The position numbers were made by a program, and so were the translations under genes. From Neobacillus drentensis (GTDB lineage Bacteria > Bacillota > Bacilli > Bacillales > Cytobacillaceae), in NCBI RefSeq assembly GCF_021560175.1, contig NZ_CP091110.1, forward strand, positions 2,470,001 through 2,534,000: 64,000 bases of DNA, read 5' to 3'. Below, piece after piece: positions 3,581-27,082 of the stretch (position 1 is the stretch's first letter; every line of letters starts with the position of its first letter). Under the pieces are notes generated by a model. That model was not told the origin of the DNA, made no database searches, and saw nothing but the letters and a program-made list of their open reading frames with translations.

Positions 3581-3730
3581 TAATTGTGCCCGCGAATCGG
3601 GTAAAAATAGTTTGGACGGTCAAAATAAAAGGTAATTGTGCCCGTTAACCCGGAGAAATAGTTGAAGCGGTCAAAATAAAGGGTAATTGTGCCCGCTAGC
3701 CGGGAAAAATAGTTAGAACGGTCAAAATAA
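3581..3730. repeat. Tandem repeat, three copies of about 52 bp
   Basis: Three head-to-tail copies begin at 3581, 3633 and 3684, each opening with TAATTGTGCCCG and closing with GGTCAAAATAA. The periods are 52 and 51 bp. Each copy carries a short dyad (CCCG, 4-5 bases, CGGG) near its 5' end. The stretch codes for nothing convincing; the reading frame on the minus strand is only the repeat read in successive frames. It sits between the sbcC terminator and a long palindrome. Confidence 0.9.
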
Positions 3731-3735
3731 GCAGG

Positions 3736-3774
3736 GGGACGGTTCTTATGCTTCGGAAGCATAAGAACCGTCCC
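3736..3774. repeat. Long perfect palindrome, REP-like
   Basis: A near-perfect 19-base inverted repeat: left arm 3736-3754 starts GGGACGGTTCTTATGC, right arm 3756-3774 is its complement, with a single base between. It lies between two convergent genes (sbcC and the FAD dehydrogenase), 6 bp from the latter's stop. It could serve as a terminator hairpin, but its length and perfection suggest a mobile REP-type palindrome. A second long palindrome of different sequence but the same style is at 62433-62480. Confidence 0.85.
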
Positions 3775-3780
3775 TTTGCT

Positions 3781-5439
3781 TCACCCATTTAATTCTTGTA
3801 CAAGTGCCCGTCCCGCTTGCCGGCCTGTGAATAGACAGCCCCCGACGAATGTTCCTTCAAGGGAGCGGTACCCATGTATCCCTCCGCCGCCAAAGCCTGA
3901 TACCTCGCCGGCGGCATATAATCCAGGCACTGGGCTGCCTGAAGCATCAAGCACTCTTCCGGATAAATCGGTTTGCAGACCGCCCAGCGTTTTACGACTG
4001 ACAATATTTAAACGGACAGCAATGAGGGGGCCCATTTTTGGATCAAGAATCTTATGTGGTGGTGCTACGCGAATTAGTTTATCCCCTAAATAATTTCGAG
4101 CCCCGCGCATAGCAGTAATTTGCAGATCTTTTGTAAATTTATGATCGATTTCCCTGTCACGTGCTTCAATTTGCCGTCTTACTACATCAACATGGAGGAG
4201 CTGATCACCGGTCAGCTTATTCATCCCTGTAACCAATTCATCCAACGTTTTCGCAATAACAAAATCCTCCCCCTTATCCATGAACGCTTTCACTGGTGCC
4301 GTCGGACCTGGAAGGACTCGGGCCAATACCTTTTTAATACTCTTTTCTGTCAAATCTGGATTCTGTTCCGATCCGGAAAGGGCAAACTCTTTTTCAATAA
4401 TTTTCTGAGTTAAAATAAACCACGAATAATCGTAGCCTGATTTCATTATTGCTTCCAGAGTTCCCAGCGTATCAAAGCCTGGGAAATTTGGTGCGGGAAA
4501 GCGGTTCCCTTTAGCGTCAAGCCAGAGGGAGGAGGGACCAGGAAGGATTCGAATTCCATGGTTAGACCATACGGGATTCCAATTTTTTATGCCTTCTGTA
4601 TAGTGCCACATTCGGTCACGATTCACAATTCGGCCGCCGGCTTTTTCAGTAATGGCGAGCATCCTGCCATCAACATGTTCAGGCACGCCGGAAATCATCT
4701 GTTTTGGTGCCTCACCTAACCGGGAGGGCCAGTTTTTTCGAATCAGCTCATGGTTTCCGCCGATGCCGCCGCTTGTTACCACAACTGCTTGGGCAAGGAA
4801 CTCAAAATCCCCAACAACCTCCCGGGAGCTTGCTTCCCCACGAGCAGCGGAACTAGCGATAAGAACATCACCCCTTACCCCAGTGACCGTTCCAGCATTT
4901 TTTATTAATTCATTCACACGATGGCGCGGACGATAGTCAACAAGACCTTCCGCTATTGCTTGCCGGACTCGTTCCTCAAACGGCTTGACAAGTCCGGGGC
5001 CAGTCCCCCAAACGATATGGAAACGGGGAACAGAGTTACCATGACCTTCTGCTGTATACCCTCCACGCTCAGCCCAGCCAACCACTGGAAAGAAACGGAC
5101 CCCCATATCATAGAGCCATTGACGTTTTTCGCCAGCAGCAAAATCAACATAGGCCTCTGCCCACTTTTTACCCCAATAATCTTCATCGTACGCACGGTCA
5201 AAGCCGGCCGATCCTAGCCAGTCCTGCCAGGCAAGTTCCCTCGAATCCTTTATCCCCAACCTTCTCTGTTCGGGTGAGTCTACTAAAAATAGACCGCCGA
5301 ATGACCACCATGCTTGGCCGCCAAGAGAGGCTTCCGGTTCTTGATCTAAAAGTAATACTTTTTTACCGGCATCAGCAAGTTCGGCAACGGTTACCAAGCC
5401 GGCCAGACCAGCCCCCACTACGATGACATCGTATGGCAA
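3781..5439 (-). CDS. FAD-binding dehydrogenase (fumarate reductase/ketosteroid dehydrogenase type)
   Basis: A 552-residue flavoprotein. Residues 4-35 form the dinucleotide-binding fold (IVVGAGLAGL, acidic end at LLLDQEPEA); a second FAD contact is the C-terminal GLYAAGEVSGFGGGG with GTFVGGCLFTG after it, as in the FAD_binding_2 family that includes fumarate reductases and 3-ketosteroid dehydrogenases. No signal peptide is seen, so it should be cytosolic. The substrate cannot be read from sequence. It stands alone: no partner iron-sulfur or haem subunit is next to it. The start lacks a strong SD (GGGATAAAATTGCC precedes the ATG), but the N-terminus matches the family. Confidence 0.85.
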   Translation of the reverse strand: MPYDVIVVGAGLAGLVTVAELADAGKKVLLLDQEPEASLGGQAWWSFGGLFLVDSPEQRRLGIKDSRELAWQDWLGSAGFDRAYDEDYWGKKWAEAYVDFAAGEKRQWLYDMGVRFFPVVGWAERGGYTAEGHGNSVPRFHIVWGTGPGLVKPFEERVRQAIAEGLVDYRPRHRVNELIKNAGTVTGVRGDVLIASSAARGEASSREVVGDFEFLAQAVVVTSGGIGGNHELIRKNWPSRLGEAPKQMISGVPEHVDGRMLAITEKAGGRIVNRDRMWHYTEGIKNWNPVWSNHGIRILPGPSSLWLDAKGNRFPAPNFPGFDTLGTLEAIMKSGYDYSWFILTQKIIEKEFALSGSEQNPDLTEKSIKKVLARVLPGPTAPVKAFMDKGEDFVIAKTLDELVTGMNKLTGDQLLHVDVVRRQIEARDREIDHKFTKDLQITAMRGARNYLGDKLIRVAPPHKILDPKMGPLIAVRLNIVSRKTLGGLQTDLSGRVLDASGSPVPGLYAAGEVSGFGGGGIHGYRSLEGTFVGGCLFTGRQAGRALVQELNG

Positions 5440-24012: not shown

Positions 24013-24125
24013 TCTTGTACCCCTTTTTGTCCTAATTTTAGCTCAAAGAGTAGAATAATTCATAATTTATTTGACTTTTATTATAGAGAAATATATAATT
24101 TTTTCAAAAATACTATTTGAAACGT

Positions 24126-24350
24126 TGACGGGGATTAGTAAATTGACGTGGTCTTACCAAGAGAGGAAACCATTGGTGTGAGGTTTCTTAAGACAATCAA
24201 TTGAACCTGCCTCACGAGTTCTGTATCGGATTATTACTTGAAGATACATGCGGATAAAATCCGTTATCATGCGAGAGAGTTTAAAGCTTTTGCTTTTTGA
24301 ATTTAGGGTGGTACCGCCAGGCCTTGGTCCCTTTTTTAGGATCAGGGTCT
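24126..24350 (+). promoter_or_regulatory. T-box leader of proS (tRNA-Pro sensing)
   Basis: The T-box sequence AGGGTGGTACCGCC is at 24305-24318; the bulge TGGT can pair with the NCCA end of uncharged tRNA-Pro. Upstream, GATTAGTAAA and AGAGAGG look like the stem I S-turn and AG-bulge elements, and CCT at 24206-24208 is the best candidate specifier codon (Pro). The terminator stem is CCTTGGTCC (24322-24330) with GGATCAGGG (24339-24347) and a T5 tract. The last base of the T-box is C where the common form is CCGCG. Uncharged tRNA-Pro would favour the antiterminator and raise proS expression. Confidence 0.88.
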
Positions 24351-24419: not shown

Positions 24420-25850
24420 ATGGCAAAGGAATTTGTAAAAGATGTAACCAGTATGGACGAGGATTTCGCCCAGTGGTATACAGATGTTGTCACGAAAGCA
24501 GATTTAATTGATTATTCAAGTGTTCGCGGTTCAATGATTATCCGCCCGTATGGGTATGCATTATGGGATAATATTAAAAACGAGTTAGACCGACGCATTA
24601 AAGAAACAGGGCATGAAAATGTTTATATGCCATTATTTATTCCTGAGAGCCTGCTTCAAAAGGAAAAAGACCATGTTGAAGGCTTTGCTCCTGAAGTAGC
24701 CTGGGTTACTCACGGCGGCTCTGAACCATTAGCCGAACGTTTAGTGGTCCGTCCAACATCAGAGGTATTATTCTGTGAGCATTACAGTAATATCATTCAC
24801 TCATACCGTGATCTGCCAAAACTATATAATCAATGGGCTAACGTAGTCCGTTGGGAAAAAACAACCCGTCCATTTTTACGGACATTAGAGTTCTTATGGC
24901 AGGAAGGCCATACTGCCCATGCAACAGATGAAGATGCAATGGAAGAAACGATTAAGATGTTAAATGTCTATGCGGCTATTTGTGAAGAAATTCTTGCTAT
25001 TCCTGTGGTAAAGGGTCAGAAAACCGAGAAAGAGAAGTTTGCTGGTGCTAAGGCTACTTTTACGATTGAAAGTTTAATGCATGATGGAAAAGCATTGCAA
25101 TCCGGAACTTCCCATCACTTTGGTACAGGGTTTGCTGAAGCGTTTAACATTCAGTATACAGACAAAGAAGGCAAGCTGCAGTATGTTCATCAAACGTCAT
25201 GGGGCTTTACAACCAGAATCATCGGTGCATTAATCATGGTTCACGGCGACGACCGCGGTTTGGTAATACCTCCTAAAGCTGCGCCAACTCAAGTAATGAT
25301 TGTTCCGATTGCGCAGCATAAAGAAGGCGTGCTTGATTTTGCTTATGATTTGAAAAAGTCTCTAGCTTCTGTTGCTCGCGTTGATATTGATGCCAGCGAT
25401 AAAAAACCAGGCTGGAAGTTCAATGAGTATGAAATGAAAGGGATTCCTGTTCGTCTTGAGGTCGGACCTAAGGATATTGAAAATAAGCAGGTTGTCTTGG
25501 TTCGAAGAGATACATTAGAGAAGATTGTTGTTTCTTTAGACGAGTTAGAAACAAAACTGGTTGAATTGTTAGATGATATTCAATCAAACCTTTACAATAA
25601 GGCATTAAATCATCGTGAAGAGAGAACTTCGGTTGCGACGACTCTTGAGGAGTTAAAGGATAGCCTTGAAGCGAAACCAGGGTTTATCAAAGCTATGTGG
25701 TGCGGCGATTTAGCCTGTGAAGAAAAGATCAAAGAGGATACTGGCGCAACTTCCCGCTGTATTCCTTTTGAACAGGAAAAAGTGGCTGATAAATGTGTTT
25801 GCTGTGGTAAAGAAACAGACAAAATGGTTTATTGGGCTAAGGCTTACTAA
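24420..25850 (+). CDS. proS: Prolyl-tRNA synthetase, short (archaeal/eukaryal-type) form
   Basis: A 476-residue class II synthetase that charges tRNA-Pro. Motif 2 is seen as [18 protein letters not shown] and motif 3 near [10 protein letters not shown]. It lacks the long editing insertion of the 560-residue bacterial form and ends with a zinc-type C-terminal domain (four Cys: [17 protein letters not shown]) and a terminal Tyr, features of the archaeal/eukaryal type. B. cereus-group genomes carry such a short enzyme as a second ProRS, so another copy may exist elsewhere. It is controlled by the T-box just upstream and closed by its own terminator. Confidence 0.93.
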
Positions 25851-25860
25851 AATATTAGAG

Positions 25861-25890
25861 GACTCTTCCGGTTTCGGGAGGGTCTTTTTT
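25861..25890 (+). terminator. Terminator of proS
   Basis: GACTCTTCC pairs with GGGAGGGTC (three G-T pairs among nine), 6-base loop, then TTTTTT. It begins 10 bases past the stop. Confidence 0.85.
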
Positions 25891-25929
25891 ATATAATGGG
25901 AGAACGGGCGTGTGGAGGCATGAGGGTTC

Positions 25930-26397
25930 ATGAGGACAATCCAAGAGAGAAAACCGAGCAACTTGTCCTCATGGCGAGTTCGTGAGGACAATCCAAGAGA
26001 GGAAACCGAGCAAGTTGTCTTCATGGCGGGTTCATGAGGACAATGCAAGAGAGGAAGGCGAGCAACTTGTCCTCATGACGGATTCATGAGGACAATCAAA
26101 GAGAGAAAGCCGAGCAACTTGTCCTCATGATAGGTTCATGAGAACAATTCAAGAGAAGAAACCAAGCAACATGTCCACATGACGGGTTCATGAGGACAAT
26201 TCAAGAGAAGAAACCAAGCAACCTGTCCACATGACGGGTCCATGAGGGCAATCCGAGAGAAGAAACTAAGCAACCTGTCCACATGACGGGTTCATGAGGA
26301 CAATCCAAGAGAAGAAACCAAGCAACATGTCCACATGACGGGTTCATGAGGACAATCCAAGAGAAGAAACCAAGCAACCTGTCCACATGATACTTTT
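25930..26397. repeat. Tandem repeat array, nine 52-bp units
   Basis: Units start at 25930, 25982, 26034, 26086, 26138, 26190, 26242, 26294 and 26346, every 52 bp without a single indel. Each begins (A/G)TGAGGACAAT and has CAAGAGA and GAGCAAC/AAGCAAC at fixed places. Units 1-4 end in TTGTCCTCATG, the exact complement of CATGAGGACAA, giving 11-bp hairpin arms; units 5-9 carry TGTCCACATG instead, which leaves one mismatch. The change is abrupt at unit 5. All three minus-strand frames are open in part because 52 is not a multiple of 3, but this is repeat sequence, not a gene. A degenerate half unit may precede it. Confidence 0.95.
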
Positions 26398-26521
26398 ATA
26401 AAAACCAGGGTCGTCAAATCTAGTGAATGTTTGCAAAAGATCTCTCAAATTGACACTAAAAGAAAGGAAAACTTAAGATCTATGGCGAATTTTAATGATT
26501 CAGAAGGGGGGAAGTACCTAT

Positions 26522-27082
26522 ATGAAACCAATCTTAATAGATTTTCCAGAAGAAATTTATACGGAGAGACTATATATTCGAAAGCCGATGCCTGGAGATG
26601 GAAAAGTGGTCTTTGGAGCCATGCAGGCATCTATAAATGAACTGAAACCGTGGATGCCCTGGGCTAATCGAGAGCAAACGGAGCAAGAGGTAGAGGCAAA
26701 CATGCGTGAATCCCATGCGAAATTTTTAACCAGAGAGGACCTAAGACTACATATATTCAACCGAGAAACAGGTGAGTTTATCGGTGCCACTGGTTTGCAC
26801 CGGATGAATTGGGACATACCAAAATTTGAAATCGGCTACTGGATTGATACCAGACAAAGCGGAAATGGATATATTACGGAAGCAGCAGAGTCAATCACGG
26901 AATTTGCCTTTCGTGAACTAAACGCAAAACGCGTAGAAATCCGTTGTGATCGTAAAAATAGCAAAAGCCGAGCAATTCCTGAGAAATTAGGTTTTACCTT
27001 AGAAGGGATATTAAAAAATGACGGAATTTCTGCCGATCAGCAAGAACTCCGCGATACTTGTATCTACGCAAAAATCAAATAA
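26522..27082 (+). CDS. RimJ/RimL-like GNAT N-acetyltransferase
   Basis: A 186-residue acetyltransferase of the ribosomal-protein-alanine type: TERLYIRKPMPGD at the N-terminus, FEIGYWIDTRQSGNGYITEA holding the acetyl-CoA loop, then RVEIRCDRKNSKSRAIPEKLGF. The target could be a protein N-terminus or a small molecule. ATG at 26522 has SD GGGGGG 8-9 bases upstream; an earlier in-frame start at 26495 has none. It follows the repeat array and ends in a strong shared terminator. Confidence 0.88.
   Translation: MKPILIDFPEEIYTERLYIRKPMPGDGKVVFGAMQASINELKPWMPWANREQTEQEVEANMRESHAKFLTREDLRLHIFNRETGEFIGATGLHRMNWDIPKFEIGYWIDTRQSGNGYITEAAESITEFAFRELNAKRVEIRCDRKNSKSRAIPEKLGFTLEGILKNDGISADQQELRDTCIYAKIK

Follow-up and report, generated by a model that had tools for sequence, protein, structure and literature searches.

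Nine tandem units of exactly 52 bp lie between two genes of Neobacillus drentensis, and the question raised by this locus is why the unit should measure 52. The array was analysed within a stretch of 64,000 nucleotides of the genome (NZ_CP091110.1, positions 2,470,001 to 2,534,000), which is called the window here and to which positions refer unless another locus is named. The following features surround and compose the array.

24116-24335: T-box (RF00230), the leader ahead of proS, found by Rfam search
24420..25850, + strand: ORF upstream of the array, which we take to be proS (prolyl-tRNA synthetase)
25864..25892, + strand: intrinsic-terminator-like site after proS and before the array, found by motif search
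25910..25924, + strand: tentative degenerate right-arm remnant ahead of unit 1 (GTGTGGAGGCATGAG), from reading of the sequence
25929..26389, + strand: array of nine 52-bp units, from the sequence, Tandem Repeats Finder, a repeat finder and the unit table
25929..26129, + strand: sub-block of units 1-4 with AGAGAGAAAACCGAGC-like linkers, from the sequence and the unit table
26137..26389, + strand: sub-block of units 5-9, with right arm TGTCCACATG in all and shifted AGAGAAGAAACCAAGC-like linkers
26450..26479, + strand: Sigma-70-like promoter match TTGACA-18-TAAGAT between the array and the next gene, found by motif search
26495..27082, + strand: ORF downstream of the array, presumably a GNAT-type acetyltransferase
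3581..3730, + strand: second, degenerate array of similar kind with period 51, found by Tandem Repeats Finder, with boxes TTGTGCCCG and CGGTCAA seen by eye

The array in the window and the class to which it belongs

Each unit consists of a left arm CATGAGGACA (10), a linker (25), a right arm TGTCCnCATG (10) and a gap (7), of which the first left arm occupies 25929-25938 and the final right arm TGTCCACATG occupies 26380-26389. The spacing between units is exactly 52 for all nine when read from the sequence. Tandem Repeats Finder gave 25919-26390 with a period of 52, 9.1 copies and 88% matches, and the repeat finder gave eight 222-nt copies with start-to-start distances of 52 in 7/7 intervals; nine units at this exact spacing had been claimed in the original prediction, and the three readings confirm it. 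The two distinct halves proposed there (units 1-4 and 5-9) were also recovered, on the TGTCCACATG arms and shifted linkers of units 5-9. Uniform arms within each half were found in part: TGTCCACATG is the right arm throughout units 5-9, and the right arm is TGTCCTCATG in units 1, 3 and 4, but unit 2 is altered in both arms (CGTGAGGACAA, TTGTCTTCATG) and has the right arm TGTCTTCATG, and divergent arms occur in unit 5 (CATGAGAACA) and unit 7 (CATGAGGGCA). In G012, the nearest relative, one TGTCCACATG unit stands next to units of the other kind at the same place, so the two unit types are older than this genome.

An ORF check placed the array in intergenic, non-coding DNA, as had been predicted. 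The promoter search that gave the Sigma-70-like site returned one match, compared with an average of 1.4 in shuffles, and a check for phage origin returned one match in the viral collection. At 3581-3790, the degenerate 51-bp array directly adjoins a REP-like palindrome (GGGGACGGTTCTTATGCTTC ... GAAGCATAAGAACCGTCCC).

The window array belongs to the 52-nt constant-length tandem repeats of Bacillus, which were published with no function assigned (Subirana and Messeguer 2021, PMC8161180). Members of this class have a constant length of 51-53 and at least four copies, of which the window array has nine, all of 52. Its genome likewise holds several arrays of equal length and different sequence (six by arm pattern; eight by Tandem Repeats Finder), the array is intergenic and non-coding, and the host is in Bacillaceae. 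It further resembles the published repeats in carrying short characteristic sequences together with their reverse, and none of its features excludes membership. Neither the main text of PMC8161180 nor our literature search describes the 27/25 layout or the leading-strand purine polarity presented below; an in-phase purine period and differing families at one orthologous site are likewise not described in that main text. As far as these sources show, the 10-25-10-7 anatomy and the replication polarity are new here.

Layout, unit length and helical phase

In the genome of the window, an arm pattern that permitted linkers of 10-36 returned 30 rows in six arrays, with a linker of 25 in all; six of these rows are symmetric units read in reverse. 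Tandem Repeats Finder, applied to 40 stretches of 20 kb and the window, gave eight arrays of the 52 kind, the window array among them, with several different arm sequences (printed periods of 102, 103 and 154 were assigned by eye), together with further arrays of the 20-21 kind. The two arms of a unit form an inverted repeat; their letters vary between families while complementarity is kept, which bears out the pairing of arms originally suggested. An outer dyad of 27 alternating with the 25-nt linker recurs beyond this genome. Among 18 of the 27 families in table 1 of PMC8161180 (those with a 52-letter consensus), all from other species, it was present with at least 8/9 pairs in 8/18 (0.03 expected from shuffles) and with at least 7/9 pairs in 13/18 (0.43 expected). 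It also appeared with at least 8/9 pairs in 6/10 families of the same genus that had not been fetched by arm pattern (0.07 expected). The layout fell below 7/9 pairs in 5/18 published and 1/10 own-genus families, the misfits including the published family pseudalcaliphilus 5 (p 0.35) and L107 of this genome (p 0.32). The dyad centre falls on a base in 38/39 unit clusters, a set enriched for TGTCC arms through locus fetching, and in 106/284 units position 6 of the right arm puts a G or an A against A, which makes a mid-arm A.G or A.A mismatch frequent.

The arm pattern was matched in at least 55/60 genomes of the genus among the matches listed, a minority of which have other linker lengths. Since the backward pattern gives a few matches too, only larger counts are informative, such as 59+58 versus 2+1 in G062. 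In a collection of named records, the pattern occurred mostly in Neobacillus, Robertmurraya and Bacillus sp., with some B. methanolicus, one Paenibacillus sp. BSR1-1 record set and a few matches that are probably due to chance.

The unit length is held more tightly than the letters, as had been claimed. In the window array 22 columns vary, which takes 24 substitutions or more, and no indel occurs. For comparison, over 430 aligned bases in the single-copy flanks of the proS array and the trmFO array, this genome differs from G012 by 39 substitutions and 7 indels, end gaps not being counted; at this ratio 4.3 indels are expected in the window array, and the probability of finding none is approximately 0.013. 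Across 45 arrays with at least three units, at least 885 substitutions were accompanied by 4 intervals that deviate by up to three bases, where the flank ratio predicts 159 indels; this observed number is an undercount, because units were seeded on the exact 25-nt linker and extended by 52 +/- 1. The same seeding and extension favour 52 in the wider count, in which the spacing was exactly 52 in 169/178 intervals of 76 arrays.

A length of 52 bp had been read as five helical turns. In the linkers of 25 clusters, purines recur every 10 bp in register with the arms, at a strength that 0/2000 shuffles matched. A test that omitted the window family and took orientation from the purine majority rather than from replication detected this period in 9 other families of the genus (p 0.001) but not in the 18 published ones (p 0.81). 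The curvature of the array was computed only, with a bend model based on assumed wedge parameters. The predicted bend per 104 bp was 92 degrees for natural arrays, 65 after shuffling of the linkers and 21 after addition of 5 bp per unit, and natural arrays exceeded the mean of 15 shuffles in 61/76 cases when one fixed 7-nt gap was used for all. The window array is predicted to bend more than all 135 other 461-bp stretches of the window, with a peak at period 52 (87 degrees, versus 21 at 47 and 24 at 57), which in this model agrees with the reading as five turns. Curvature alone is no proof of function, because any tandem repeat of integral turns sums its bends.

Replication polarity and turnover at orthologous sites

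An asymmetric arm pattern was searched in ten few-contig genomes to assign polarity and matched in 0/10; polarity was therefore tested by GC skew and in two genomes whose replichores are known. On the leading strand defined by GC skew, linkers are enriched in purines, with a purine fraction of 0.629 in 76 arrays against 0.518 in 1404 intergenic 25-mers from those of the loci of at least 6 kb. Among the 62 arrays with a clear bias, the purine orientation agreed with local GC skew in 56 and with the local ORF majority in 50, and where skew and ORF majority conflict it sided with the skew in 6/6. Agreement with co-directional flanking genes was 18/24. Where the replichore is known, 14/15 arrays have the leading-strand purine polarity, based on one representative linker per array and omitting the G032 array of period 158, for which no dyad was assigned. 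The orientation of the mid-arm mismatch also agreed with the leading strand by GC skew in 31/35 arrays. The 76 arrays were obtained after omission of 5/81 (L174, L194, L197, L230 and L243), which come from non-Bacillaceae or odd MAG contigs; with these five kept, the agreement with GC skew is 57/66 for purines and 32/38 for mismatches. All these counts include arrays of related species, which are not independent, and the ORF calling was crude. Published linkers are likewise purine- or pyrimidine-rich, with a mean deviation of 0.186 (17 linkers, genomic strand not assigned) versus 0.101 for 25-mers of the window.

Three orthologous sites, all picked for having an array in this genome, were compared in 30 genomes of the genus. 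Arrays were found at the proS site in 18/30, divided equally between the 52 class (9) and the 20-21 class (9), and the other 12/30 gave no Tandem Repeats Finder array; arrays were present in 2/30 at the topA-trmFO site and in 5/30 at the ksgA site. By eye, the proS-site arrays form some seven or eight sequence families, a few of which have part of a box in common, and four more proS sites (L044, L051, L053 and L059) seem to hold arrays that are degenerate or have two copies. In a tree of 26 genomes, the families are largely distributed by clade, one 21-bp family occurs in two places, and array-bearing and array-free sisters occur. At the proS site, what G013 has of the 20-bp array found in its sister G025 is a remnant of two copies. 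In G022, the interval from terminator to ribosome-binding site is empty, and the sister G001 carries an array of 20-bp units there; G023 has no array where its sister G032 carries a 52-bp array. Such empty sites would reflect loss rather than gain. Relatives can live without an array at the proS site. Irregular units without arms, which the original prediction had named as the mark of a neutral satellite, were looked for in the relatives, which carry either regular 52 or 20-21 arrays or none. That prediction was supported in part, and it missed the sibling arrays, the published class, the replication polarity and the array-free relatives, because these required other genomes.

Several side observations were made at these loci. 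Downstream of ksgA, the terminator of the clade (L142-L144, L146) looks as if built from the dyad of the array (TGTCCTCATGA ... TCATGAGGACA-like with a T run), or both may derive from a common source. In G003 (L145), the terminator downstream of ksgA is interrupted by an insertion of approximately 200 bp, whose ends are inverted (GGCACTGAAAAAGTC); it looks MITE-like, with a GGAATATATCA repeat on both sides. At G000:C1:6221943 (L111 18608-18651), two ATCCACA-type boxes, which we take to be DnaA-box-like, lie in a 21-bp repeat near the contig end.

A proposed phased DNA module and its rivals

That the letters drift while spacing, phase and polarity stay fixed suggests that a physical constraint acts on the DNA as a double strand, and the interchange at the proS site of 52 and 20-21 arrays, both near integral turns, suggests the same. 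The 20-21-nt tandem repeats, described by the same authors, resemble the 52 class in having integral helical turns, in being non-coding and in occupying the same proS site in 9/30 genomes, but they make two turns rather than five and have no inverted arms by eye; helical phasing, and not inverted arms, is what the two classes at this site have in common. Our preferred reading, at a probability of roughly 0.4, is that the array would work as double-stranded DNA, in the form of a module with five-turn phasing to which a putative protein binds. Each unit would present two inverted boxes, GGACA ... TGTCC, around the 25-bp linker, and repetition at five turns would place equivalent boxes on one face of the helix, where small bends of the units may sum to strong curvature. 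A putative DNA-binding or nucleoid protein would recognise the spaced boxes and polymerise on, or wrap, the curved intergenic DNA, with a possible role in nucleoid structure or in insulation of the neighbouring genes. Octamers of the SpoIIIE or KOPS type within the linkers, and wrapping by gyrase or Lrp, were further candidates that we considered.

Some observations go against this module. A partner protein was not found among the IS200/RAYT Y1 genes examined. One sequence-specific protein would not bind all arrays, because a single genome holds several arm families. The missing 10-bp purine period in the published families, the families that depart from the 27/25 layout, and the relatives without an array at the proS site, such as G022 and G023, also count against it.

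The main rival is a selfish satellite arising from replication with no benefit to the cell, a minority possibility in our estimation that nevertheless carries real weight. The arms would fold in the lagging-strand template, slippage or template switching would amplify the unit and by the same process renew the complementarity, and the unit size would be set by the replication or repair machinery. The leading-strand polarity, whether judged by GC skew, in the conflicts with ORF majority or by replichore, is as expected from such an origin, and so is the turnover seen at the topA-trmFO and ksgA sites and between close pairs with and without an array. A replication-driven satellite accounts for polarity and turnover about as well as the phased module does, but taken alone it leaves unexplained why unrelated arms share the 27/25 layout, why the purines recur in phase and why two period classes occur at one site.

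A reading of the array as RNA, in which tandem hairpins form a sponge, a processing site or a regulatory RNA, is improbable. Folding beats shuffles on both strands (z -4.9 on + and -2.7 on -), but inverted repeats fold well by construction. In a test for arm pairing preserved by G-U wobble on one strand, G.T and A.C mismatch events numbered 61 to 44 (p 0.12, a weak and non-significant excess) with the fifth column omitted and 68 to 51 with it. The orientation of the arrays follows the flanking genes less closely than the GC skew, a terminator-like site precedes the array, and the 20-21-bp arrays of the proS site lack inverted arms by eye. An Rfam search over the array gave 0 families at gathering score, with eight sub-threshold matches at E up to 10. 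The authors who published the class report transcription of such repeats in RNA-seq of B. coagulans (PMC8161180, PMC8625621), which would suit an RNA.

We regard as very unlikely an origin as a REP-like mobile element, in which a single-stranded hairpin was moved by a Y1 transposase (RAYT or IS200-type) and then expanded in tandem. In BIME/REP arrays with RAYT transposases, as in the array here, palindromic units lie between genes and close to gene ends, in some cases as tandem copies. Transposition of single strands by Y1 transposases is biased to the lagging strand, a polarity similar to that of the arrays. Downstream of ksgA, G034 (L144) contains a lone unit outside an array, in which inverted arms of 12 bp enclose a 25-nt linker; it would fit a mobile unit. 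The palindrome of the array differs from those of REP elements, however, and the two Y1 matches in the genome have other hairpins beside them, with no array-arm unit within 1500 bp on either side, so that both were rejected as partners. Comparison of ksgA sites with and without an array gave no target duplication by eye, in a poor alignment. One RAYT-like Y1 gene (L270, G000:C1:5672596-5672928, - strand) is adjoined by copies of its own GGGACGGTTCTCATGCTTC palindrome and forms a separate REP-like system. A CRISPR-like array, suggested by the alternation of a palindromic 27 block with a 25-nt block, can be dismissed, as the original prediction had done, since linker identity is 0.76 within arrays and 0.33 between them, the reverse of what spacers show.

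Returning to the phased module, a broader form may be put forward tentatively, and we hold it to be rather doubtful: Bacillaceae would carry replication-polarised architectural DNA modules of either two turns (20-21 bp) or five turns (52 bp), the two forms being interchangeable. Selection would act on the phase of the helix, the spacing of the boxes and the bias between strands and would leave the letters free to drift, so that unrelated arrays swap at the same positions. Some Bacillaceae have the 52-nt repeats in abundance, and the layout, polarity, predicted curvature and family-swapping site of these repeats make the question of why the unit is 52 directly testable.
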